A stretch of DNA of 36,089 nucleotides, from contig JALWNK010000060.1 in assembly GCA_026995935.1 (NCBI GenBank), positions 1-36,089 on the forward strand. Reading direction: 5' to 3'. The position numbers were made by a program, and so were the translations under genes. Origin of the DNA: Deltaproteobacteria bacterium (lineage in GTDB: Bacteria > Desulfobacterota > Dissulfuribacteria > Dissulfuribacterales > QOAL01). The notes beneath the pieces are model-generated. The model made no database searches, was not told where the DNA came from, and saw only the letters and a list, made by a program, of their open reading frames with translations. This document shows positions 596 to 35,317 of this stretch, piece after piece; the stretch's first letter is position 1; each line of letters starts with the position of its first letter.

Positions 596-3307
596 TTATG
601 CTGCTGTTTCCAGTGCCTTTTCCTTAAGAAGGCTGTTTGCAGCCCTTAAAACCTGGTCTCTGTCAAGCTTTGACTGGTAATCATCAATCCCGGCCTCAAG
701 ACCCTTCTGCCTGTTTTCCTCTCCTGAAAGGGAGGTGACTGCAATTATGGGAACATCCTTGTTGCCAGCCTCGCTTCGAATTTTTCTGGCAAGCTCAAAA
801 CCGTTCATCTTGGGCATCTCAATGTCGGTTATAACCAAGTCAAAGTGGTCTGATTGAAAGATTTCCCACGCCTTCTGGCCGTCCTCGGCCTGGACCACGT
901 CGTATCCAGCACCAGTCAGGTAAGAGAGCAGCATGTTCCTGTAGAAGGTGGAATCCTCAGCAAGGAGTATTTTCGCAGGTGTGTCTGCATAGAGTTCTTC
1001 CTGTGTAAAGAAATCCGGGTCATGCATAGAGATTATCTGGTAGACATCCAGGAACAGGGTCGTCCTGTCCTTTATGATTGCAGAGCCCAGGATTCCTTCC
1101 TGCTTGAAGGTTCCCTCCTCCACATCTATGGCAAGATCCAAGCTGTCATCAATCTGGGATACCAGAAATGCAATGTCCTTGTGGTTCATGTGAAAGACAA
1201 TGAGATGGTACTCGTCCTGCTCGGGAAGTGGAGAAATGGGCAGGTAATTTTCCAGCCTGATAACAGGCATGGAATGGCCCCTGTACTGGATAACCTCCTT
1301 GCCGCCAACAAATTCAAGGTCAGATGCCTTTATCTTGTCAAGCCTGTTGACCAGGGCAAGGGGCAGGGCAAAGTATTCGTTCTCTCCTATTGTGCAGAGA
1401 AGTAGAAACTGGTGGTCGTCTTCAACTGTCTTGGTGTTTACGACAGTACCATGTTTCATTGCGTCGTCTCCTGCCGCAGCAGACGATGTTATTCCAACCA
1501 CGTCCAGGATGAGGGCCACGCGACCGTCTCCCATGAGTGTTGTTCCTGCAAAAACGGGGATGTGTTTCAGGTGAGATCCAAGGGGTTTTACTACGATTTC
1601 TTCAGAGTCGCTGATGGAATCCACAACAAGGCCGAAAAGGTGGCCGCCTGCATTGAGAACCACGATATTCATGCCATCTTCCTCTGAAGCCTCTTCCTGC
1701 TCATCCAGTCGCAGGACATTTCTCAGTCTTATCAGAGGCAGAATTTCACCACGCAAGCGGTAGAATTCCGAATTTCCAATCTTTTGTACATCCCTTTCCA
1801 TGAGTTTTGGATTTAAGTGCACAAGCTCAACCAGGTTTACCTGGGGAATGGCGTATCTCTGGTCCTGGCTGGTTACGATGAGGGCAGGTATGATTGCCAG
1901 GGTGAGGGGAATCTTTATCTTTATGGTGGTTCCCACTCCGACTTCGCTTAGAAGTTCAACTGTTCCGCCAAGCTTCTCTATGTTTGTCTTGACTACATCC
2001 ATTCCTACCCCACGGCCAGAGATGTTGGTAACCTTTTCCGCAGTGGAAAAGCCGGGTTGGAAAATCAGCATCAGGGCCTCCCTGTCACTGAGGGCCTCTG
2101 CCTGCTCCTCGGTGATGAGTCCCTTGTCAACGGCCTTTTGCCTGAGTTTATTGGGGTCGATGCCTGCGCCGTCATCCACTATCTCTATGATGACCTGACC
2201 GCCTTCGTGGTAGGCCTTCATGGTGAGGGTTCCCACAGGCGGCTTTTCCTTTTGGACCCTGATGTCAGGCGGTTCGATTCCGTGATCAATGGAGTTTCTG
2301 ACCATGTGAGTCAGGGGATCCTTTATGCTCTCGATAATGGACCGGTCAAGCTCTGTTTCTGCTCCCTCTATCCTGAGCTGGACCTTTTTCTCTGCCGTCT
2401 TGGCGAGATCCCTGACAATCCTTGGGAACTTGTTGAAGACGTTACCTATTGGCTGCATCCTGGTCTTCATTATCTGTTCCTGGAGTTCCGTCACCACGAG
2501 GCTCATACGCTGATTCGCCGTAAGAAACTCAGGATCATTAAGCTGGTTGGCAAGCTGTGTGAGCCTGTTCCTGGAAAGGACCAGCTCGCCGGCAAGGGTC
2601 ATGAGCTGGTCAAGGAGATGGACATCAATCCTTACATGGCTTTCCGTAAGATGCGCCGATGAAGGGGCAAGCTTTCTGGCAGGCTTCTTGGGCTTTGGTT
2701 TGGATGGTGACTGCTTCTTTGCCTCTGCCTTTTTCTCTTGCTCCTCCTTATTCTCCGTCTTGTCTTTGGACGGTTCTGTTCCAGACTCGTCCCTGTCTTC
2801 TGTCTTTGACTCTTTTTCTGAAGGTTGCTCCCCGGAATCCTCTTCCGGCTGTTTTTCAACCGATTCTTCTGCGGCCTTTTCTTCCGAATCCTGTGCCTGG
2901 CCTGTGGCCTCCTTGGCAATTTTTTCAGAAAAGTTTCTGAGATCAACTATAAAGTCCAGGTAATCCGTATCTACGGGTTCCTTTCCCGTGGCTTCAAGCT
3001 CTGCCAGTATGGCCTTGATGTAGTCAACGGACTGGAGAAGCATCGTGGTTATGTCCTCGTTGACCTTTATGACACCATCCCTCAGCTTTGAAAGGATATC
3101 CTCTGCAAAATGGGCTATGCCTTCCAGGGTGGTGAAGCCAAAGAAGCCAGAGGTCCCCTTTATGGTATGGATGGTCCGGAAAATGCTTTTAATGAGTTCT
3201 TCGTTTTCCGGATCTTGTTCCAGTTCCACAAACTGCTGATCAAGGAGTTCAAGGTTCTCCTTGGATTCTGCCAGAAAATCTTTCAAAATGTCGTCTTCCA
3301 TTCCCAT
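596..3307 (-). CDS. cheA: Hybrid chemotaxis histidine kinase CheA with two CheW domains and a C-terminal receiver
   Basis: CheA autophosphorylates and passes phosphate to CheY and CheB. This 903-residue form shows, in order: an Hpt domain with the phospho-histidine at about residue 47 (RTIHTIKGTSGF); a long Glu/Lys/Ser-rich linker (about 135-215) where a CheY-binding P2 domain would sit; a dimerisation helix pair (about 222-300); and an ATPase domain with N-box HMVRNSIDHGIE (about 334-345), DDGAGID (378-384) and GRGVGMD (431-437). A regulatory CheW domain (about 470-600) and a second CheW-like domain (about 640-770) follow. A receiver domain (about 778-903) has its phospho-aspartate at about 828 (VITDIEMPKMNG). 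Classical CheA has one CheW domain and no receiver, so this is an extended hybrid. The ATG at 3307 has GGAG seven bases upstream. It lies 50 bases downstream of cheR and 14 bases before cheW. Confidence 0.96.
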   Translation of the reverse strand: MGMEDDILKDFLAESKENLELLDQQFVELEQDPENEELIKSIFRTIHTIKGTSGFFGFTTLEGIAHFAEDILSKLRDGVIKVNEDITTMLLQSVDYIKAILAELEATGKEPVDTDYLDFIVDLRNFSEKIAKEATGQAQDSEEKAAEESVEKQPEEDSGEQPSEKESKTEDRDESGTEPSKDKTENKEEQEKKAEAKKQSPSKPKPKKPARKLAPSSAHLTESHVRIDVHLLDQLMTLAGELVLSRNRLTQLANQLNDPEFLTANQRMSLVVTELQEQIMKTRMQPIGNVFNKFPRIVRDLAKTAEKKVQLRIEGAETELDRSIIESIKDPLTHMVRNSIDHGIEPPDIRVQKEKPPVGTLTMKAYHEGGQVIIEIVDDGAGIDPNKLRQKAVDKGLITEEQAEALSDREALMLIFQPGFSTAEKVTNISGRGVGMDVVKTNIEKLGGTVELLSEVGVGTTIKIKIPLTLAIIPALIVTSQDQRYAIPQVNLVELVHLNPKLMERDVQKIGNSEFYRLRGEILPLIRLRNVLRLDEQEEASEEDGMNIVVLNAGGHLFGLVVDSISDSEEIVVKPLGSHLKHIPVFAGTTLMGDGRVALILDVVGITSSAAAGDDAMKHGTVVNTKTVEDDHQFLLLCTIGENEYFALPLALVNRLDKIKASDLEFVGGKEVIQYRGHSMPVIRLENYLPISPLPEQDEYHLIVFHMNHKDIAFLVSQIDDSLDLAIDVEEGTFKQEGILGSAIIKDRTTLFLDVYQIISMHDPDFFTQEELYADTPAKILLAEDSTFYRNMLLSYLTGAGYDVVQAEDGQKAWEIFQSDHFDLVITDIEMPKMNGFELARKIRSEAGNKDVPIIAVTSLSGEENRQKGLEAGIDDYQSKLDRDQVLRAANSLLKEKALETAA

Positions 3308-3357
3308 GTTCTATCTCCTAAGTGTAGTTCTTGTTATTTTCTCCAGTCTTGTCTGGG

Positions 3358-4173
3358 TCACTGTTTCTGCCAGCACGTGGTTCTTCCAAAGTTCTTCCTC
3401 TTCATGTTTGAAGGAAGACCCACCGGGGTCTCTGTTGCGCCCAAAAAGAGGTAACCTCCTGGGTTTATGACCTTCACTATCTTTTCCAGGATGGACTGCT
3501 TGGTCTTCTGGTCAAAGTAGATGAGCACGTATCTGCACATGACCACGTCAATGTTGTTGATTCCTATGAGGGGGCCCATGAGATTAAGCTTCTTAAAGCG
3601 TATGAGCTTCTTGAGCCTTTGATCCACCATCCAGAATGCCCCCTGCTGTTTGAAATACTTGATAAGCAACTGTATGGGCAGGCCTCGGTTCACCTCCACC
3701 TGTGTAAAGCGGCCGGCACGGCCCTTGTCAACGGCCTGCTGAGATATGTCAGAGGCGATGATTTCCCTGCGCCAAGTCTTGATCTGGGGAAAGTGTTCTT
3801 CAAGGATTATTGCGATGCTGTATGGCTCCTGCCCGGTTGAGCAGGCGGCGCTCCAGAACCTCAGGGTCTTTTTGCTTTTTCTGGCCTCAATGAGTTCCGG
3901 TATTATTTCTTTTTTAAGTACCTCAAAGGGGTGTTGATCCCTGAAGAAGTAGGTTTCATTGGTGGTCATTGCCTCAATGATCTGCTCCTTCAGCTTTTGG
4001 GAGGGCTTGAACTTTGCCTTACGGTAAAGTTCATTAATATCCTTAAGCCCTAGCACCCTTGCAAGCTCGTTCAGCCTGCTCTCAAGCAGATATTCCTTAC
4101 CCTTTGAGAGGGCGATCCCGCTTGATTCCTTAACCAAGGTAGAAAAGAACCGGAACTGTTCCGGATTAATCAT
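3358..4173 (-). CDS. cheR: Chemoreceptor methyltransferase CheR
   Basis: CheR transfers methyl groups from S-adenosylmethionine to glutamates on chemoreceptors, giving adaptation. The 271-residue product has the helical N-terminal domain (about 1-75). The signature TTNETYFFRD (about 69-78) follows, then the SAM-binding loop FWSAACSTGQEPYS and the later acidic and hydrophobic core motifs. In the usual CRN(V/I)LIYF motif the Asn is replaced by Tyr (CRYVLIYFD), a mild departure that would need checking against homologues. No C-terminal TPR or pentapeptide-binding extension is seen. It starts 18 bases after the cheB stop and its ATG overlaps nothing, so it fits translational coupling within the che operon. 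Assignment is firm. Confidence 0.94.
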   Translation of the reverse strand: MINPEQFRFFSTLVKESSGIALSKGKEYLLESRLNELARVLGLKDINELYRKAKFKPSQKLKEQIIEAMTTNETYFFRDQHPFEVLKKEIIPELIEARKSKKTLRFWSAACSTGQEPYSIAIILEEHFPQIKTWRREIIASDISQQAVDKGRAGRFTQVEVNRGLPIQLLIKYFKQQGAFWMVDQRLKKLIRFKKLNLMGPLIGINNIDVVMCRYVLIYFDQKTKQSILEKIVKVINPGGYLFLGATETPVGLPSNMKRKNFGRTTCWQKQ

Positions 4174-5915: not shown

Positions 5916-8813
5916 ATGGACTATAAAGATACGCTCAACCTTCCGAAGACAAAGTTTCCCATGAAGGCCAATCTCAGCCAGAAAGAGCCACAGATGCTGA
6001 AAAAGTGGAAAGAGATGGCCCTATATCAAAAGCTTCTTGAAAAGGGAAAGGGCAGGGCCAGGTTCATCCTTCATGACGGCCCTCCCTATGCCAATGGCCA
6101 CCTACACCTGGGACACACGGTTAACAAGGTACTTAAGGACATAATAGTCAAGTACCAGATGATGACGGGTCATGTTGCCCCCTTTGTACCCGGCTGGGAC
6201 TGTCATGGCCTGCCAATTGAGCACAACGTGGAAAAGAAGCTTGGCTCCAAAAGACACAAGATGGACAAGCTTGATATAAGAAGGCAGTGCAGGGAGTACG
6301 CTGAGCGCTTCGTTGACATACAAAGGGCAGAATTTGAGCGTCTTGGTGTGCTCGGGGACTGGGAAAATCCCTACCTCACCATGAACTACGACTACGAGGC
6401 AACAATAGCCAGGGAGTTTTGCAATATCTATCTAAACGGTTACGTGGTTAAGAGCACAAAGCCCGTTTACTGGTGCCCAACCTGTGTTACCGCTCTTGCA
6501 GAGGCGGAGGTGGAGTATGCCCCCCATGCCTCTCCGTCCATTACTGTCAGGTTCCCTTGCGGTGATGACATGAGGTCATGGCTAAGGAAGAGGGTTTCCG
6601 GCCTTGGTGATTATGAAAGGTGCTATGTTCTCATCTGGACCACAACCCCATGGACCCTTCCAGCAAACCGTGCCGTGGCAGTACATCCAGACCTGAACTA
6701 TCTGGCAGTGAAGATTCCTGCACAGAAGGTTAAAAAGACCCTTTCCCAAGAAGGAGAGGTAAAGGATGAGATATGGATAGTGGCTGAGGGCAGGCTTCAG
6801 GCCATTTTGTTGTCTCTTGGGTTTGAGCAGGCAGACGTTAAGATACTTGGCGAGTTTAAAGGGGATGAGCTTGAGGGCCTAAGCGTGCGTCACCCCTTCA
6901 TAGAAAGGCAGGGGCCGGTCATAACCGCAGATTATGTGACCCTTGAAAGCGGTACCGGAGTTGTGCACATAGCCCCAGGGCATGGAAGCGAAGACTATGA
7001 AAGCAGCAGAAAGTATAACCTTGAGGTCTATTCACCTGTGGATGACAGGGGCATTTTTACAAGCGAGGTAGAGGGATTTTCAGGCCAGAACATATTCAAG
7101 GCAAATCCACAGATAATTGAGCTTTTGAAAGAAAGGGGCATGCTCATCCATACCGAGGAGCTCACCCACAGCTATCCCCACTGCTGGAGGTGCAAGAGGC
7201 CGGTCATCTTCAGGGCCACGGCCCAGTGGTTCATCTCCATGGACAGAAATGACTTAAGGGAGCGCGCGTTAAAAAACATCGATAAGGTCAAGTGGATACC
7301 TTCATGGGGCAGGGACAGGATCTACGGCATGGTTGAGGCCCGTCCAGACTGGTGTATTTCCAGGCAGAGGGCATGGGGTGTTCCAATAACCGTCCTTATC
7401 TGCAGAAACTGTGGGGAGCCCGCCCTTACAGGGGAGATGGCGGAAAAAATAGTCTCCTTTTTTGAAAAGGAGGGGGCAGACTCCTGGTTTGCAAGGCCTG
7501 TTTCCGATTTTATTCCACAGGGGTTTGTCTGTTCCTCCTGTGGCGGAAGCGATTTTTCCAAGGAGGAGGACATACTGGATGTCTGGTTTGATTCAGGTGT
7601 AAGCCATGCTGCCGTTCTTGAAAGGAGAGAAGAGCTTTCCTGGCCGGCAGACATGTACCTTGAAGGAAGCGATCAGCACAGGGGATGGTTTCAAAGCTCT
7701 CTTTTGACATCAGTTGCCACAAGGGACAAGGCGCCCTACAGGTCTGTTCTCACCCATGGTTTCGTGGTGGATGGCAAGGGCAAGAAGATGTCAAAGTCCG
7801 TTGGAAACGTTATACCTCCTGAAAAGCTCATAAAGCGCTTTGGCGCAGAGATATTAAGGCTGTGGGTGAGCGCGGAGGATTACAGGGATGACATTAAGAT
7901 ATCAAATGAGATACTCCAGAGGCTCACAGAGGCCTATCGTAAGATAAGAAACACCATTAGGTACCTTTTGAGCAATCTTAGTGACTTTGACCCGGAAAGA
8001 AACTCACTTCCCCTTAGTAAGCTCGAGGCCCTTGACAGGTGGGCACTGGAAAGGGTCGCAAAGGTCCTCTCCAAGGTCAAAAGGGGGTACGAGGATCATA
8101 AGTTCCACATTGTGTTCCATCAGATACACAGGCTTTGCACTGTGGATTTGAGCGCCCTTTATCTGGACATCATCAAGGACAGGCTTTACTGTGAGTTAAG
8201 AGATGGGGAAAAAAGGCGTTCTGCCCAGACCGCCCTTTTTCACATAGCAAAGCACCTTATAACCAGTATGGCTCCTGTACTGTCCTTTACTGCAGATGAG
8301 GCGTGGGTGCATCTTACAGGAAATGATGGGGACTCCGTGTTTTTCCAGCAGATGTCTGATCCTCCGGCAGGTCTTTTATCCAAAGAGGAAGAGGCTTTCT
8401 GGGAGCAGGTGTTTGATTTGAGGGGAGAGATTACAAAGGCCCTTGAGCTTGCAAGAAGGCAGAAACGAATAGGTCTTGCACTGGACGCCAGGGTCCTTGT
8501 GAGATTGCCGGAAGATTTAGGCCTTGAGCCTGGAAAAGGGCTTGAAGAGTGTCTTAAGATGGTGACCATAGTCTCACAGCTTGAGATTGTGGAGGATTTT
8601 GATCAGGAGCAGGCCTCCAATCAGGCAGATATATGGGAGAGCGAAGAGATTAAGGGGCTTTCCTGTCTCGTGCTTCCTGCCAAGGGGGAAAAGTGTGCAA
8701 GATGCTGGACCTGGAGCGAATATGTTGGAAAGGACAGGGACTTTCCAGATGTGTGTGAAAGGTGTGCAGGCGTACTCAGACAGATGGCGTTGCTCCACAA
8801 ACAAGATGAATAA
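5916..8813 (+). CDS. ileS: Isoleucyl-tRNA synthetase
   Basis: IleRS charges tRNA-Ile and edits valine. The 965-residue protein shows the class I HIGH-type motif as HLGH (64-67) within PPYANGHLHLGH and the KMSKS loop at about 624-628. It has the CP1 editing domain between them (about 190-400, including WTTTPWTLPANRAV). A C-terminal zinc ribbon with four cysteines (about 927, 930, 947 and 950) is also present. This is the bacterial type I form with the C-terminal zinc site. The ATG at 5916 is preceded by AAAAAGGTG. It is divergent from the che operon and heads a plus-strand run with a phosphatidyltransferase, rsmI and kdsB. No T-box-like leader was recognised in the 240-base upstream gap. Assignment is firm. 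Confidence 0.98.
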   Translation: MDYKDTLNLPKTKFPMKANLSQKEPQMLKKWKEMALYQKLLEKGKGRARFILHDGPPYANGHLHLGHTVNKVLKDIIVKYQMMTGHVAPFVPGWDCHGLPIEHNVEKKLGSKRHKMDKLDIRRQCREYAERFVDIQRAEFERLGVLGDWENPYLTMNYDYEATIAREFCNIYLNGYVVKSTKPVYWCPTCVTALAEAEVEYAPHASPSITVRFPCGDDMRSWLRKRVSGLGDYERCYVLIWTTTPWTLPANRAVAVHPDLNYLAVKIPAQKVKKTLSQEGEVKDEIWIVAEGRLQAILLSLGFEQADVKILGEFKGDELEGLSVRHPFIERQGPVITADYVTLESGTGVVHIAPGHGSEDYESSRKYNLEVYSPVDDRGIFTSEVEGFSGQNIFKANPQIIELLKERGMLIHTEELTHSYPHCWRCKRPVIFRATAQWFISMDRNDLRERALKNIDKVKWIPSWGRDRIYGMVEARPDWCISRQRAWGVPITVLICRNCGEPALTGEMAEKIVSFFEKEGADSWFARPVSDFIPQGFVCSSCGGSDFSKEEDILDVWFDSGVSHAAVLERREELSWPADMYLEGSDQHRGWFQSSLLTSVATRDKAPYRSVLTHGFVVDGKGKKMSKSVGNVIPPEKLIKRFGAEILRLWVSAEDYRDDIKISNEILQRLTEAYRKIRNTIRYLLSNLSDFDPERNSLPLSKLEALDRWALERVAKVLSKVKRGYEDHKFHIVFHQIHRLCTVDLSALYLDIIKDRLYCELRDGEKRRSAQTALFHIAKHLITSMAPVLSFTADEAWVHLTGNDGDSVFFQQMSDPPAGLLSKEEEAFWEQVFDLRGEITKALELARRQKRIGLALDARVLVRLPEDLGLEPGKGLEECLKMVTIVSQLEIVEDFDQEQASNQADIWESEEIKGLSCLVLPAKGEKCARCWTWSEYVGKDRDFPDVCERCAGVLRQMALLHKQDE

Positions 8814-29119: not shown

Positions 29120-29833
29120 ATGGGTCTTCTTGACCTGATTCCCTGGTTCAGAAAGCAGAAACACCCTGTCCTTGAGGACAACTACCTCTATTTTCAGGAC
29201 TTTGACCAGGACAGACCCTTAAAGGAATACGAGTTCGTGGTCTTTGATTCCGAGCTCACAGGGCTCAATCCCAGGAAGGACGAGATAGTTTCCCTGGGCG
29301 CAGTCAGGATAAGGAATCTCAAGATAATTCCCCAGGAAAACTTCTACTGTTTTGTTAAACCCCAGCGCCATCTCCCAAAGGATAGCACCCTTATACATAG
29401 AATCACTCCGGAGCAGATAAAAAATGCTCCTTCTATTGAGGAGGTTCTCCAGGACTTCGTCAAGTTTTGTAATGGCGCTCTCATCGTGGGGCATTACGTT
29501 GACCTGGATATGGCTTTCATAAACAAGGTAACTAGGCGCTATCTTGGAGGTCCCCTTGCAAATCCCTGCATTGATACCCTGAGGCTTGCCCAGCTTTACA
29601 AGGAGGAGGAGTGGGGCAACTACTACGACAGGTTCAACTACAATGTATCCTACAACCTCTCTGATCTTGCAGCAGAGTATGGTCTTCCAGAGTTTCAGGA
29701 ACACGATGCCCTAGGCGACGCCTTCCAAACCGCCTACCTGTTTCTGTTCCTGGTGAGAAAACTAAAAAAGGGTGGTATAACCACCCTGAAAGAGCTTTAT
29801 CTGGCAGGAAGGAGCTGGCGCTGGCTTTTCTAG
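29120..29833 (+). CDS. DnaQ-like DEDDh 3'-5' exonuclease
   Basis: The 237-residue protein has the three exonuclease motifs of the DEDDh group: Asp43 and Glu45 in VFDSELTGL, the Asp in GHYVDLDMAFINK and His/Asp in EHDALGDAFQTAYLF. It therefore should degrade single-stranded nucleic acid from the 3' end with two metal ions. Such proteins are often labelled DNA polymerase III epsilon, but this one lacks the C-terminal region that binds the polymerase, and its N-terminal 35 residues are distinctive. Its position 18 bases after the DUF294 regulator implies a joint operon and perhaps a substrate such as a nucleotidylated or tailed RNA; that is a guess. GGAAGG precedes the ATG. Its stop shares a CTAG palindrome with the convergent L,D-transpeptidase. 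Confidence 0.87.
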   Translation: MGLLDLIPWFRKQKHPVLEDNYLYFQDFDQDRPLKEYEFVVFDSELTGLNPRKDEIVSLGAVRIRNLKIIPQENFYCFVKPQRHLPKDSTLIHRITPEQIKNAPSIEEVLQDFVKFCNGALIVGHYVDLDMAFINKVTRRYLGGPLANPCIDTLRLAQLYKEEEWGNYYDRFNYNVSYNLSDLAAEYGLPEFQEHDALGDAFQTAYLFLFLVRKLKKGGITTLKELYLAGRSWRWLF

Positions 29834-31527
29834 CCCTCCGCACTCCTGGGGTTTACTAGTGCAAGCTTTATGGGTGTGTCAAGACCGATGAGTATCTTTT
29901 TGTCCCTGTTGTAGATGTCTGGCAAAAACGTAATGGTGTTGTCATGGTTTCTGACAACGGTCCAGTAGAGAATGAGTATGGGCATGCGTCTTTCAAGGTG
30001 GATTATCCTGTTTTTACCAGATGCAATGGCCTCCTTTATCTTTTCCATGGTCCATTTTTTTGAACCCTCAAAGAGTATTCTGGCAAGCTCAAGGGGCTTT
30101 TCAACCCTTATGCAACCGTGGCTGAAGGCCCGCATGTTTTTGGAAAAGAGTGCCTTGGCAGGAGTGTCGTGCAGGAAGACAAAGTGTTTATTGGGAAAAA
30201 TGAACTTGATCCTGCCAAGGGCGTTTTGGGGCCCTGGTTTTTGCCTGATGATGTAGGGAAATCGGGCTGGATTTATGTGCTTCCAGTTGATGGACCTTGG
30301 GTCTATCCAGTGGCCCTTGGCATCCACTATCTCCATATTGTTTTTTGATAGATATGACGGATTTCTCTTTATTTTGGGCAATACCTCTTTTTTAAGTATG
30401 CCTGGCGGCACCACCCAATATGGATTGACCACAACGTATTCCATGGTGGCCCTAAATATCGGGGTTTTCCAGTAAGGCTTCCCCACCATTACCTTGCAGG
30501 ACCACTTTTTTTTACCATTTTCAAAATAAAAAAGTCTGAAACCGGCAATATTCACCAGGAGAAAACGTTTAGGCAGATCATGTAGCACCCACCTTGCCCT
30601 TTCAAGATTTACTCTTATCTTGTCTGCCTTGAAGGCTGGGGTGAGATTCAGCATCTTGTTGGTGTTTTTTCCGACTACGCCGTCGGGTTCAAGTCCGTGA
30701 TGCAGTTGAAAGTCCCTTACAGCATCTTCAAGCTTATCGTCAAAAAGTTCGGGATCTTGTGTGGAATGTCCGTGTTGGAGAAAGCCTTCGGAAGCAAGTC
30801 TTGCCCTTAAAAGGGCCACGTCATTTCCCCTCATGCCAGGTCTGAGGGTCCTTGTGAGGTGAAGGTGTGGCCATGGATTCTTGGCAAACTGCCGGTATTT
30901 TTTAAGCCAGGTGCGAAGAACCGTGTAGTAGGGCTGATGCGGCCAGAGCCTGTCAAGCTCTCTGGTTATGTTGCCAGAGGATATGACCCTTTCAAGGTAA
31001 AGGGCCGGGTCCTTATCAAGTATCTTCCTCTTGAAATTCCAGTCGGGATCAAGGCTTTCAGGCGAAACCTTTCCATAATAGAGATGAAAGCTCAATCTCA
31101 GAAGGGCATCTGTCAATAGGACGTCCATGTCTGCCCTGTCGGATGCAGTTCCCTGTTCGTTTTGGATCTTTTTCATCAATCCAGTTATGGCCGAAAGGTG
31201 GTAATCTTCAGGATTGAGCCCGTGGTCAAAGGAACCCTTTATGGCAGCTAGCATCTCATGGATGGTCTTATGACTTGTCCAGGCAGGGGTGTAATTCCTG
31301 CCCATGTAAAATTTGGGGATGGTGATCTGGGATGCCACGCAGGTTGAACATACCGGCATCTTTTTGAACTGTTCAAGATATTGGCAGCGTTTGAGGATGT
31401 ATTCAGAAACGCTTCCTCCCGATGATTGTGCAAGGCTTGAATGGCCACTTGGAAATACAAGGCACAAAGCCAGGGCAAATAAATGCAGTAATAAATTAAA
31501 TGCCCTTTTAAATTCCTGCTTTTTCAA
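29830..31527 (-). CDS. L,D-transpeptidase of the YcbB type with peptidoglycan-binding domain
   Basis: These enzymes make 3-3 cross-links in peptidoglycan or attach lipoproteins to it. A signal peptide (about 1-34, ending HSSLA) is followed by a scaffold region. A peptidoglycan-binding domain (about 230-300; LRPGMRGNDVALLRARL and GLEPDGVVGKNT) and the YkuD catalytic domain come next. The catalytic motif is HDTP followed by SHGCIRVEKP, with the nucleophilic cysteine at about 472. A C-terminal domain of about 90 residues follows. Total length is 565, close to YcbB. Three cysteines lie just after the signal (about 48-66, including a CSTC pair). The start is TTG at 31527, the only one that keeps the whole signal peptide; it overlaps the upstream gene by 20 bases. 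No good Shine-Dalgarno is seen. Confidence 0.92.
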   Translation of the reverse strand: MKKQEFKRAFNLLLHLFALALCLVFPSGHSSLAQSSGGSVSEYILKRCQYLEQFKKMPVCSTCVASQITIPKFYMGRNYTPAWTSHKTIHEMLAAIKGSFDHGLNPEDYHLSAITGLMKKIQNEQGTASDRADMDVLLTDALLRLSFHLYYGKVSPESLDPDWNFKRKILDKDPALYLERVISSGNITRELDRLWPHQPYYTVLRTWLKKYRQFAKNPWPHLHLTRTLRPGMRGNDVALLRARLASEGFLQHGHSTQDPELFDDKLEDAVRDFQLHHGLEPDGVVGKNTNKMLNLTPAFKADKIRVNLERARWVLHDLPKRFLLVNIAGFRLFYFENGKKKWSCKVMVGKPYWKTPIFRATMEYVVVNPYWVVPPGILKKEVLPKIKRNPSYLSKNNMEIVDAKGHWIDPRSINWKHINPARFPYIIRQKPGPQNALGRIKFIFPNKHFVFLHDTPAKALFSKNMRAFSHGCIRVEKPLELARILFEGSKKWTMEKIKEAIASGKNRIIHLERRMPILILYWTVVRNHDNTITFLPDIYNRDKKILIGLDTPIKLALVNPRSAEG

Positions 31528-32281
31528 AGTACTGGAGGGCTCCTTTTGCGTTTATTATACGGGATTTTTGTAGGTAACACCTGTCTCTTCCAAAGATGAA
31601 CAGGCAGCTTCCATCCTTAATTGTCCTTATTATGGGTGCGGCCAGATTTTTGGGCAGGGCCGGGCAGCCAAGGCTTCTTCCAGCCCTTCCATACCTCTTA
31701 ATGAACTGCTTAGAGACGTAGTCTGCCCCATGAATGACTATCCTTCTTTTTACCGCATTGTCGTTTATCCCTGGCTCCACACCCTTAATGAGAAGGGAGT
31801 AGCCGTGTTTTCCCTTGTAGGTGCGGCCCGTAATAAAAAATCCAAGACAGCTCTTGTAGGAACCAGGACGGTTTGAAAAGCCACAGGCATATCTGTCCCC
31901 AGAATTTCTTCCGTGGGCCACAAGGGTCTTGTACAGAAGGCGGCCCTTTTTTATGTCCATTACAAAAAAGCGCTCTCTGTCTGAAGGCAGGCTGTAGTCG
32001 ATTAATACCACCCGGTCATCTTTCTTTATATTGCCATTTCTTTTGAGATTGAGGTAGCCAATGAGACACGTTTTAAAGGTCTCAAGGCTGGTATACTCTG
32101 AAAGCCCCATTTTTTTGTAGAGACTTCTGGCGTACCTGTCAAACTTCTTGGCAGTAAAGTTTTCCCTTTCAACGTAACAAGCTGCTGCTTGTTTTTTGTT
32201 CAGGGATGAAGAAGAAACACAGGGAAAGAGGCAGAATGCCACGGAAAGCACAAAACAAAGGCTTTTCCTTGGTTTTGTCAC
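31508..32281 (-). CDS. Murein L,D-transpeptidase catalytic-domain protein (YkuD_2 type)
   Basis: This 257-residue exported protein belongs to the second L,D-transpeptidase family. A signal peptide (about 1-25) is followed by a helical lead-in and the catalytic fold, with VIHGADYVS and the nucleophile at about residue 206 in RSLGCPALP. It probably acts on peptidoglycan stem peptides in the periplasm. The mature protein carries about seven cysteines, unusual for this size, and several could form disulfides. The start is GTG at 32281 with GGGAGGG six bases upstream. Its 3' end overlaps the start of the YcbB-type gene by 20 bases, so the two are translationally coupled. Two different transpeptidase types in one operon suggests linked roles in wall remodelling; the exact reaction of each is not shown by sequence. 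Confidence 0.87.
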   Translation of the reverse strand: MTKPRKSLCFVLSVAFCLFPCVSSSSLNKKQAAACYVERENFTAKKFDRYARSLYKKMGLSEYTSLETFKTCLIGYLNLKRNGNIKKDDRVVLIDYSLPSDRERFFVMDIKKGRLLYKTLVAHGRNSGDRYACGFSNRPGSYKSCLGFFITGRTYKGKHGYSLLIKGVEPGINDNAVKRRIVIHGADYVSKQFIKRYGRAGRSLGCPALPKNLAAPIIRTIKDGSCLFIFGRDRCYLQKSRIINAKGALQYFEKAGI

Positions 32282-32508: not shown

Positions 32509-32655
32509 TCCAGTGCTTCTCAAAGACAGAAACTGAATGGTTACTTATTAAATGCGAAATTGACCAAACTTTAAGTATTCTGTTTGAAACAAAACAGAAG
32601 TCTATACTAACTTGATTGTGAAATGAATTACAAACAAGAATGAGAATTTATTTAC

Positions 32656-32683
32656 TTGACTAAAAAAGGAAATTATAGATAAT
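32656..32683 (+). promoter_or_regulatory. Candidate sigma-70-type promoter of the molybdopterin oxidoreductase operon
   Basis: TTGACT (32656-32661), a 16-base spacer and GATAAT (32678-32683) give five-of-six matches in each box. Transcription would start near 32690, about 64 bases before the ATG. The dyads lie 160 to 290 bases upstream, a distance usual for activators rather than repressors. Confidence 0.55.
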
Positions 32684-32753: not shown

Positions 32754-34868
32754 ATGGAAAAGACAGTATGGAGCATGTGTGGAATGTGTTCCGTCAGATG
32801 TCCCATCAAGGTGGAAGTAGAAGATGGGAAGGTCCGATGGATTGAGGGGAATCCACACATCCTGAAGGGGAGTCTTTGTGCCAAGGGGTCAGCAGGAGTA
32901 GCACTACATAAGGATCCTGAAAGGCCTCAGCAGCCGCTCATAAGAAGTGGTGGAAGGGGTGCCGGGAAGTGGGAGCCGGTAAGCTGGTATACAGCCCTTG
33001 ATTATGTGGCAGAAAAGATAGAGAAGATCAAGGAAAAGTACGGCGCCAAGTCCATTGTCATGAGTTGCAGGGGAGGGCCATGGCAGGATCTCATCAAGGC
33101 GTTCTGTTATGCCATTGGTTCACCAAACTTCACCAACCATGACAGCGCCTGCGGCAGAAACGTTCACCATGCCAGCAAGTCGGTTTACGGTCTTGGTAGA
33201 AAGGGCTTTATATACGACATAGCCAATGCTGAACATCTTATATGTTTTGGAAGGAACCTGCTCGCCTCCCTGAGGGTTGCCGAGGCGAATCAGGTCATGG
33301 ACATGTTGGACAATGGCGGTAGTCTCACCTACGTGGATGTCCGCCAGACCCTTACTGGTATCAAGGCAACCAGGTTTTTCCAGGTCCGGCCTGGAACAGA
33401 CTACGCCCTTGCCCTTGGAATGATAAACGAGGTCATAAAGCAGGAGGCCTACGACAAGGACTTCGTGGAGAAGTATACCGTGGGCTTTGATCAGATGGCA
33501 GAGTTCGTTGAGCCCTACACTGCGGACTGGGCTGCCAAGGAGTGCGGAATAAAGGTCAAGAAACTCAAGGACTTTGTAAACGAGATAGGAGGCCAGCGGC
33601 CAAGGGTCATCTTTCATCCTGGCTGGATGCTTTCAAGGTATAATGATTCCTTCTATGCAAGCAGGTGCCTGCATATTCTGAACGTCCTCATGGGCAACAT
33701 AGAGACAGAGGGCGGTCAGTTGTTCCCAAAGACACCTGCGGACTGTGGCGTAAAGGGCCTGCGGACCTTCAGCTCAAATGTACCCAAACCTGAAGAAAAA
33801 CGGGCAGACGGAGTTGGCTGGAAATATAAGCACTTTGACAAGGGCCCGGGTCTCTTCCATCTTTACTACGAGGCCATGGCTACTGGTGAGCCTTACCCAA
33901 TTAAGGGGCTCATCTGCTACAGACACGATCCATTTACCTGTTTCCCAGACGTGGCGGCACAGAAGGAGGCCCTGGATAACTGCGAACTTCTTGTTTCCAT
34001 TGATACCCACTACAGCGAATTTGGCTGGTACAGTGACGTAATACTTCCAGAATCCATGTACCTTGAGAGGGAGACACCTATAGCCACCCAGAAGGGGCTT
34101 AAACCAAGGTTCATATACAGGGATAGGGCAGTGGATCCCAGGTTTAATACCAAACCATCCTGGGAGATACTCAAGATGCTGGCAGATAGATTGGGATTTG
34201 GCGATCTATTCCCCTTCCACACTGCAGAAGACATGTGGAATTGGCAGCTTGAGCCAACCGGCTACACCATAGAGGACTTTCAGGAAAAGGGTTTCGTTTC
34301 CCTTACCGATACACCGATAATGTATGACAGGGAAGATCTCGAGGGCAGGTTCAAGACCGCCTCTGGAAAGATAGAATTCATTAATGAGACCCTGGAGGGC
34401 CTCGGAATTCCCTCATTCAAGCCCTATGAATCCCCAAAGAAGCCTCCCAAGGGGCGTTTCAGGCTGGTCTTTGGAAGAAGCCCAGTGCATGCCCACAGTC
34501 ACACCATCAACAATCCCATGCTTCACGAGCTGTTTCCAGAAAACACTCTCTGGATCAATAAGCGCATAGCAACCAGGCTGGGTATAAACGACGGGGACTG
34601 GGTAGACGTAATTGGTGACAGCCAGATGGGGACAATACGCGCACATGTCACAGAGTTCATCCATCCCGAGGCGGTTTACACGGTTCATGGTTTTGGAAGG
34701 CAGGTTCCGCTCCAAAGCCGTGCCTACCACGCAGGAATGAGTGATCAGAAACTCCAGGAGGGGTTGCTGTTGCATATGGATGAGGCTGGAGGCGGCCTGT
34801 GCCTTTGCGAAAAGTTTGTAACTGTGCGCCGTAGCTCCAGGAATCCAAGAAGGAGGGTAGAACTGTGA
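32754..34868 (+). CDS. Molybdopterin oxidoreductase, DMSO-reductase superfamily, leaderless
   Basis: The 704-residue protein has a [4Fe-4S] site made by C9, C12, C16 and C42. The domains that hold two molybdopterin guanine dinucleotide cofactors follow, ending in a molydopterin-binding barrel (LVFGRSPVHAHSHTINNPML). A cysteine at about residue 133 (HDSACGRN) is at the place expected for the metal ligand. Length and partner resemble thiosulfate/polysulfide reductases (PhsA/PsrA), but the substrate cannot be read from sequence. There is no Tat signal: the first cluster cysteine is residue 9 and the ATG is set by GGGAGG five bases upstream. The enzyme is therefore expected in the cytoplasm, unlike classical PhsA/PsrA. 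Its stop overlaps the Fe-S subunit GTG by four bases. Confidence 0.9.
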   Translation: MEKTVWSMCGMCSVRCPIKVEVEDGKVRWIEGNPHILKGSLCAKGSAGVALHKDPERPQQPLIRSGGRGAGKWEPVSWYTALDYVAEKIEKIKEKYGAKSIVMSCRGGPWQDLIKAFCYAIGSPNFTNHDSACGRNVHHASKSVYGLGRKGFIYDIANAEHLICFGRNLLASLRVAEANQVMDMLDNGGSLTYVDVRQTLTGIKATRFFQVRPGTDYALALGMINEVIKQEAYDKDFVEKYTVGFDQMAEFVEPYTADWAAKECGIKVKKLKDFVNEIGGQRPRVIFHPGWMLSRYNDSFYASRCLHILNVLMGNIETEGGQLFPKTPADCGVKGLRTFSSNVPKPEEKRADGVGWKYKHFDKGPGLFHLYYEAMATGEPYPIKGLICYRHDPFTCFPDVAAQKEALDNCELLVSIDTHYSEFGWYSDVILPESMYLERETPIATQKGLKPRFIYRDRAVDPRFNTKPSWEILKMLADRLGFGDLFPFHTAEDMWNWQLEPTGYTIEDFQEKGFVSLTDTPIMYDREDLEGRFKTASGKIEFINETLEGLGIPSFKPYESPKKPPKGRFRLVFGRSPVHAHSHTINNPMLHELFPENTLWINKRIATRLGINDGDWVDVIGDSQMGTIRAHVTEFIHPEAVYTVHGFGRQVPLQSRAYHAGMSDQKLQEGLLLHMDEAGGGLCLCEKFVTVRRSSRNPRRRVEL

Positions 34869-35317
34869 ACAAATATATGCTCTATCTCAATGCAAAACGG
34901 TGTATAGGCTGTCATGGATGCGAGATTCACTGCAAGGCCAACAAGGACCTGCCAGTAGGACCCATTCTGTGCGAGATATCTCATGAGCCTCTAAAGTCGG
35001 TCAAGGGTGTTCCCAAGACAGAGTTCCTCTTTCGTTCGTGCTACCATTGTGAGGATCCATACTGTGTACCCATCTGTCCTACAGGGGCAATGAAAAAGAG
35101 GGAGGATGGCATCGTTTACATAGACCAGGAGCTCTGCATAGGGTGTATGGCCTGCGCAGGTGCCTGCCCCTGGACCATCCCACAGATAAATCCCGCCACT
35201 GGCAAGGCGGTTAAGTGTGACTACTGCATGGACAGGGTGGATCAGGGATTGAAGCCAGCCTGTGTTACAAAGTGTACTACAAGGGCCCTTAAGTTTGTTG
35301 CCCTTCAGGAAATATAA
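34865..35317 (+). CDS. Four-cluster ferredoxin-type electron-transfer subunit
   Basis: The 150-residue protein has four cysteine groups that would bind four [4Fe-4S] clusters: CIGCHGCEIHC, CYHCEDPYCVPIC, CIGCMACAGAC and CDYC with a later CVTKC. This is the PsrB/PhsB/DmsB-like electron-transfer subunit of molybdopterin enzymes. The start is GTG, overlapping the oxidoreductase stop (GTGA), with GGAGGG seven bases upstream. No membrane subunit (NrfD/PsrC type) or cytochrome follows; the next gene is on the opposite strand. Electrons must therefore come from or go to a separate soluble or membrane partner encoded elsewhere. A bidirectional hairpin terminates transcription just after the stop. Confidence 0.92.
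   Translation: MNKYMLYLNAKRCIGCHGCEIHCKANKDLPVGPILCEISHEPLKSVKGVPKTEFLFRSCYHCEDPYCVPICPTGAMKKREDGIVYIDQELCIGCMACAGACPWTIPQINPATGKAVKCDYCMDRVDQGLKPACVTKCTTRALKFVALQEI

Follow-up and report, generated by a model that had tools for sequence, protein, structure and literature searches.

A predicted soluble two-subunit Phs/Psr-like molybdoenzyme without a membrane anchor in a Dissulfuribacterales genome, and its candidate role in sulfur-anion reduction

The window analysed here is the whole stretch of 36,089 nucleotides from contig JALWNK010000060.1 of a Dissulfuribacterales genome, hereafter the source genome. On its forward strand, two genes encode a molybdopterin oxidoreductase:

32754..34868, + strand: catalytic molybdopterin subunit, 704 aa, without a Tat signal; cluster residues Cys9, Cys12, Cys16 and Cys42, Mo-ligand Cys133, and compared positions Lys44, Arg106 and Trp291
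34865..35317, + strand: Fe-S subunit, 150 aa, with four [4Fe-4S] motifs and without a C-terminal tail

The two ORFs are joined by a 4-bp GTGA overlap in the ORF reading of the window. Pfam searches assigned Molybdop_Fe4S4, Molybdopterin, and Molydop_binding domains to the catalytic subunit and a 4Fe-4S dicluster domain to the Fe-S subunit, in which 16 of the 17 cysteines lie within four cluster motifs and hydropathy revealed no transmembrane segment. The 3' neighbour of the pair is a SpoU-type methylase gene on the opposite strand (Pfam); on the 5' side, across approximately 470 bp, lie two L,D-transpeptidase genes, also on the opposite strand. No membrane PhsC gene adjoining the pair was found by Pfam among the window neighbours. 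Hence, this is a two-gene molybdoenzyme that lacks both a Tat signal and an adjacent membrane subunit gene. The original prediction of a soluble, cytoplasmic, Phs/Psr-like pair, with four Fe-S clusters in the partner subunit and no NrfD-like or cytochrome gene next to it, was borne out on these points. The L,D-transpeptidase genes (29830-32281, - strand of the window) stand in tandem and are of different type (YkuD and YkuD_2).

The closest solved structure of the catalytic subunit was PsrA of Thermus thermophilus (2vpw_A, E 9.6e-110), and that of the Fe-S subunit was the B subunit of T. thermophilus PsrABC (3.4e-27). An AlphaFold2 model of the catalytic subunit (mean pLDDT 78.3, pTM 0.80, residues 1-47 mostly poor) also had PsrA as its top fold match (TM 0.83/0.80, 32% identity). 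The PhsA model scored 508.6 bits on the catalytic subunit, below its curated cut-off of 694. A cytoplasmic formate dehydrogenase was considered as well, given that the Fdh-alpha model scored 223.7 bits and that Lys44 and the size of the subunit presumably resemble FdhH. This identity is hardly credible, however, as the score is far below the cut-off of 666.25. Furthermore, the metal-ligand Cys or Sec of formate dehydrogenases is followed by His, whereas Cys133 is followed by Gly-Arg.

One scan recovered 51 related loci at 62-95% identity, so the pair is more than a chance arrangement. The source genome itself contains a paralogue of the catalytic subunit (L065 8221-10821, 55% identical), and when this paralogue served as query, 78 out of 297 genomes from across the phylum had homologues at E 1e-150 or better. 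The set analysed comprised 134 catalytic genes at 133 loci, or 129 genes once five duplicates were removed. In 110 of the 126 loci with room for it, a B subunit gene lies no more than 400 bp downstream in the same orientation; two of the 16 exceptions (L018 and L023) do carry the gene, which automated parsing had missed. In a quick IQ-TREE tree of 48 rows, the clade stood apart from PsrA, the PhsA of Escherichia coli SE11, and a MolyA-like protein with an SH-aLRT of 99, and a FastTree tree of 108 rows with PhsA left out agreed on a separate clade. The IQ-TREE tree contained only four reference proteins, and as their branches are long, no order among them is claimed. With the references used, the window enzyme thus falls outside PsrA and one enterobacterial PhsA, and not inside a well-characterised clade, the outcome that would have refuted the original prediction. 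It has the traits of its clade, namely no Tat signal, Arg106, a Trp or Tyr at position 291 (Trp here), and an adjacent four-cluster B subunit. Judged by sequence, it appears to form a third type and not a PhsA stripped of its anchor, being about equally far from PsrA (34.5% identity) and PhsA (31.9%).

The cytoplasmic location rests on the N-terminus. In the window protein, cluster residue Cys9 is preceded by only eight residues, and hydropathy revealed no strongly hydrophobic stretch in residues 1-60. Reading upstream from the start, an in-frame stop is reached after 16 codons, on which ground an overlooked Tat signal or an earlier start codon was rejected. Across the clade, the N-terminal cluster motif was intact in all of the 134 catalytic genes but L041 and L049, whose N-terminus is missing, and no convincing Tat signal was found in the other 132 with a strict and a lax pattern. 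The lax pattern matched three of three controls and caught the KRR start of L066, which the strict pattern missed. The strict pattern matched L177 alone and the lax pattern L116 alone; both matches were judged to be chance, as sequence similarity to the other members sets in only shortly ahead of the first Cys. For the same reason, the hydrophobic stretches in long open frames ahead of the first Cys in L004, L031, L050, L051, and L116 were taken as untranslated.

Five NrfD-family matches in the source genome might suggest that the enzyme is anchored by a separately encoded NrfD-type or cytochrome subunit. Nevertheless, we consider this very unlikely and, for NrfD-type subunits, which the model search outside the window covered, rejected it: all five are on contigs other than that of the pair, and an enzyme without a Tat signal would have to be attached from the cytoplasmic side. 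Moreover, a search model built from three own-genome copies found NrfD within 1 kb of none of the 29 loci in the branch that holds the window pair (the window branch) and of one of the 58 other loci; within 3 kb, the count was 3 of 96 loci. At the sole locus with NrfD within 1 kb, L151, NrfD follows an Fe-S ORF of its own. The soluble, cytoplasmic, anchor-free state is a property of the clade and not of a single gene.

The closest named systems differ from the window pair in these respects. The polysulfide reductase PsrABC shares the fold, the Mo-ligand Cys, and the four-cluster B subunit with it, whereas the window pair lacks the Tat signal and PsrC. The enterobacterial thiosulfate reductase PhsABC (E. 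coli SE11 plasmid copy) has in common with it the domain order, the Mo-ligand Cys, the N-terminal [4Fe-4S] cluster, and the A-B gene order; its PhsA has a Tat-like start and is accompanied by phsC, both of which are missing here. The MOLY cluster (MolyA, MolyB, and MolyC) of sulfur disproportionators likewise comprises A and B subunits related to Phs/Psr and, in the excerpt available, is described as likely extracellular or exported, with a TorD/DmsD chaperone (PMC12998232). In contrast, the window pair has no Tat signal and no adjacent chaperone gene, and its catalytic subunit is 31.6% identical to the MolyA-like protein of L066. The L066 region of the source genome (7470-11051) resembles MOLY in encoding a DmsD/TorD-type chaperone, an A subunit with a Tat-like start, and an Fe-S subunit.

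The active site sets the clade apart further. PsrA Arg81, His145, and Arg332, which we take to line the active site, are replaced by Lys44, Arg106, and Trp291 in the window protein. The single SE11 PhsA sequence carries Arg85, Lys147, and His329, and all three compared positions of the window protein differ from both PsrA and PhsA, whereas the MolyA-like protein of the source genome retains the Arg, His, and Arg of PsrA. Among the 129 clade members, the Mo-ligand Cys (PsrA Cys173, Cys133 here) is kept in 128, with one gap. The position of PsrA His145 is Arg in 126, that of Arg332 is Trp in 103 and Tyr in 24, and that of Arg81 is Lys in 93 and Arg in 34; the two outermost compared positions differ from PsrA and PhsA in nearly the whole clade. 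In the window branch, Trp291 is found in 58 of 58 members and Arg106 in 57, with one gap.

These altered positions mean that the substrate may differ as well. The enzyme could act on something other than inorganic sulfur, such as arsenate, selenite, tellurite, or an organic sulfonate, or catalyse a non-redox reaction as acetylene hydratase does; acetylene hydratase and ArrA are indeed the next-ranked structures after PsrA. We regard this as distinctly unlikely, given that PsrA is both the best full-length match and the best fold, that a pyridine-nucleotide reductase with a rhodanese domain is encoded a few kb from the L189 copy, and that linkage to TauE/SafE permease genes spans distant lineages.

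Neighbourhood counts were restricted to loci flanked by 4 kb or more on each side, 29 in the window branch and 58 others. A TauE/SafE permease gene lies within 4 kb of 19 and 28 of these, respectively (47 of 87), compared with about 2.4 of 87 expected by chance from six TauE-like matches in the 2.59 Mb own genome; as the loci are related to one another, no formal P value would carry meaning. At 10 of the 29 window-branch loci there is no TauE gene in the 4-kb range, and none adjoins the window pair, the source genome having two long TauE genes elsewhere. In L125 and L126, rex, TauE, a membrane protein gene, and PhsAB form one run. At the Desulfobulbales-type example L034 (Desulfocapsa sp.), the run begins with a 162-aa protein, a sensor kinase, a response regulator, and TauE; then come a 220-aa protein that has three hydrophobic segments and the PhsAB pair, with a PPDK-like protein, a phosphatase, and a sigma-54 regulator after them. 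The recurrent 162-aa (2952-3440) and 220-aa (7283-7945) proteins had no Pfam match. Gene sizes alone had led us to guess an indolepyruvate oxidoreductase operon in the Desulfobulbales neighbourhood, a guess that was dropped when Pfam identified the TauE permease and two-component system. Several other window-branch loci likewise have PPDK-like genes close to TauE, and in the source genome a short TauE-like permease, a PPDK-like protein, and a response regulator are encoded in a row (L081 4958-9930). Two further regions of that genome, L078 8722-11187 and L079 8450-10919, each contain a long TauE/SafE permease gene beside a regulator gene whose domains we take to be Rex.

The source genome also contains dsrA and aprA. 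The TauE/SafE linkage and this dsr/apr background point to sulfur anions as the likely substrate, which the original prediction had called not evident. Our leading but tentative reading, with just short of even confidence, is that the window pair, soluble and cytoplasmic, belongs to a distinct Psr/Phs branch and acts as a sulfur-anion, most likely thiosulfate, reductase with a diffusible electron donor; substrate, direction, and donor are deduced from context. Electrons from the donor would pass through the four [4Fe-4S] clusters of PhsB and the [4Fe-4S] cluster next to the active site to a Mo/W-bisPGD with Cys133 as metal ligand, both in the catalytic subunit. There, a sulfur anion would be reduced, most likely thiosulfate being cleaved to sulfide and sulfite, products that DsrAB and AprAB/Sat could use. 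The TauE/SafE permeases may move thiosulfate, another such anion, or sulfite. We found no enzymatic activity in print for any identified clade member. In D. alaskensis, PhsAB mutants were slightly impaired on lactate/thiosulfate, with fitness values of -0.79 and -0.30 according to the available excerpt (PMC4215793), which bears on the clade only if those proteins belong to it. In Ca. D. rimicarensis, PhsAB, TauE/SafE, and NuoABCDHIJKLM are among the marked transcripts (PMC7117923, in excerpt). On the other hand, the excerpted account of Desulfolithobacter dissulfuricans reports low PhsA content in thiosulfate disproportionation, which runs counter to the thiosulfate reading, and more abundant PhsA-2 under sulfate reduction (PMC9751629).

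The genes beside the pair differ between branches. A flavoprotein gene lies directly downstream at 26 of the 58 loci in other branches and at none of the 29 in the window branch. All six tested flavoproteins have Fer4_20 and Pyr_redox_2 with 4Fe-4S domains, and that of L165 has a NuoF 51K domain in addition (Pfam); they presumably use NAD(P)H. The L176 protein, another possible partner, turned out to be a TPR protein (Pfam) and was rejected. Of the 58 loci in other branches, 19 have nuo genes within 7 kb; of the 29 window-branch loci, one does, L046, where a second PhsAB sits between the pair and the nuo genes. The PhsB tail follows a similar division: this C-terminal extension of about 17-24 residues in aligned examples is absent in 55 of 55 window-branch proteins (L100 is cut by the contig end) and present in 52 of 54 outside, and may be a docking element. 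The window copy has neither a partner gene nor the tail, for which a diffusible donor is the simplest reading. Electrons would thus come from an NAD(P)H-type flavoprotein or a complex I without NuoEFG in the sister branches, and probably from a diffusible carrier such as ferredoxin in the window branch. The original prediction had called the partner unknown; in the sister branches, the adjacent flavoprotein or complex I genes encode candidate partners.

The paralogue in L065 has both complex I-linked traits, adjacent nuo genes and the Fe-S tail, and the window pair has neither. Behind the paralogue follow nuoA, a nuoB-like frame (recognised on visual inspection), nuoC, D, H, I, J, K, and L, and two antiporter-type subunits. 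This recalls the NuoEFG module, in that a molybdopterin-fold protein and an Fe-S partner are encoded beside complex I genes, a likeness that applies to the paralogue only; the window copy lies away from nuo genes and has no Fe-S tail. The source genome has no NuoF match. NuoF is also absent from 11 of 18 other nuo-class genomes and is located elsewhere in the remaining 7 (12 matches), being on the same contig as the nuo-linked locus only in G249 and G102, far off; that PhsAB is the sole input of complex I therefore does not follow. In L153 and L156, the nuo genes lie upstream on the opposite strand, and in L120, L121, and L123 an additional Fe-S ORF separates PhsB from NuoA. A second PhsAB pair without Tat and a nuo run occupy L065 8221-17892 and L082 1914-4902 of the source genome.

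A comparable arrangement has been described in D. dissulfuricans, which has two PhsAB copies without C (PhsA-1/B-1 and PhsA-2/B-2; PMC9751629, PMC13047784), one of them tagged next to Nuo (GF1_30490-30520). The Nuo proteins encoded beside PhsAB-1 were seen only under thiosulfate disproportionation, the adjacency being read from tag numbers (PMC9751629). The excerpts consulted do not treat localisation, active site, TauE linkage, or partner swapping, and orthology to the GF1 proteins is presumed. In D. dismutans and T. dismutans, excerpts describe Nuo clusters without NuoEFG (PMC12142623, PMC4911364).

The Nuo genes without NuoEFG downstream of the paralogue also fit the opposite direction, in which cytoplasmic persulfide, polysulfide, or sulfide plus sulfite would be oxidised and electrons passed to a carrier or, by the paralogue, into forward-running complex I. 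Such Nuo genes rise during sulfur disproportionation in Desulfurivibrio dismutans, whose authors, in the part of the paper available, suggest an unknown electron-donating oxidoreductase (PMC12142623). We consider the oxidative direction unlikely, although nothing decisive speaks against it, direction being unreadable from sequence. The flavoprotein branch resembles an NAD(P)H input module, though it could accept electrons, and the D. alaskensis fitness values fit reduction if those proteins belong to the clade. Returning to sulfur-anion reduction, a wider version, which we find doubtful, would make the clade a modular cytoplasmic thiosulfate-splitting enzyme with a swapped electron module. In its complex I form, PhsAB would replace the NADH module, and complex I would run in reverse, the proton motive force driving menaquinol electrons to thiosulfate; the window copy would be the tail-less soluble form with another donor. 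A reverse electron transport step of this kind is postulated for thiosulfate disproportionation.

'PhsAB without C' has already been published for Desulfobulbaceae. The literature searched yielded neither the clade nor its residue signature, and no mention of swapped partners or of a tie of cytoplasmic PhsAB to TauE. As there is no agreed enzyme set for sulfur disproportionation or thiosulfate use in the excerpt consulted (PMC12998232), a cytoplasmic Phs-like clade with its own signature and adjacent donor genes offers concrete candidates. Donor assignment by copy would guide which to pair with NAD(P)H, complex I, or ferredoxin, and the complex I form, if true, would identify the machinery by which electrons are transported in reverse during disproportionation. 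Our results also suggest that, within Desulfobacterota, genes annotated as 'thiosulfate reductase PhsA' include cytoplasmic as well as exported enzymes.

Two candidate regulatory features lie upstream of the pair:

32616..32633, + strand: Rex-like palindrome TTGTGAAATGAATTACAA, differing at 2 positions from the Rex consensus used
32656..32683, + strand: sigma-70-like promoter TTGACT-16-GATAAT, 10/12 matches

The promoter scan gave 4 sites versus 3.8 in shuffles, that is, no excess; the TTGACT block is kept in most of 12 aligned upstream regions. The palindrome lies at -138 of the window gene, and a similar block occurs in 8 of the 12 regions, the window counted (L001, L003, and L012 lack it). 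Rex-like sites with at most 3 mismatches numbered 4 in the window versus 2.34 expected, and those with at most 2 mismatches numbered 14 in the genome versus 4 for the reversed pattern. No known Rex target was recognised among the ORFs listed around 9 of these 14 sites. Among 125 upstream regions, 7 had a site with at most 2 mismatches versus 0.33 expected from dinucleotide shuffles, and 17 had one with at most 3 versus 3.4; many of these come from close relatives. The counts are no more than suggestive of Rex control of the pair. At L046 (6807-13465), the two PhsAB types are separated by approximately 1.5 kb, and a palindrome that matches the Rex consensus perfectly lies upstream of the first of them.
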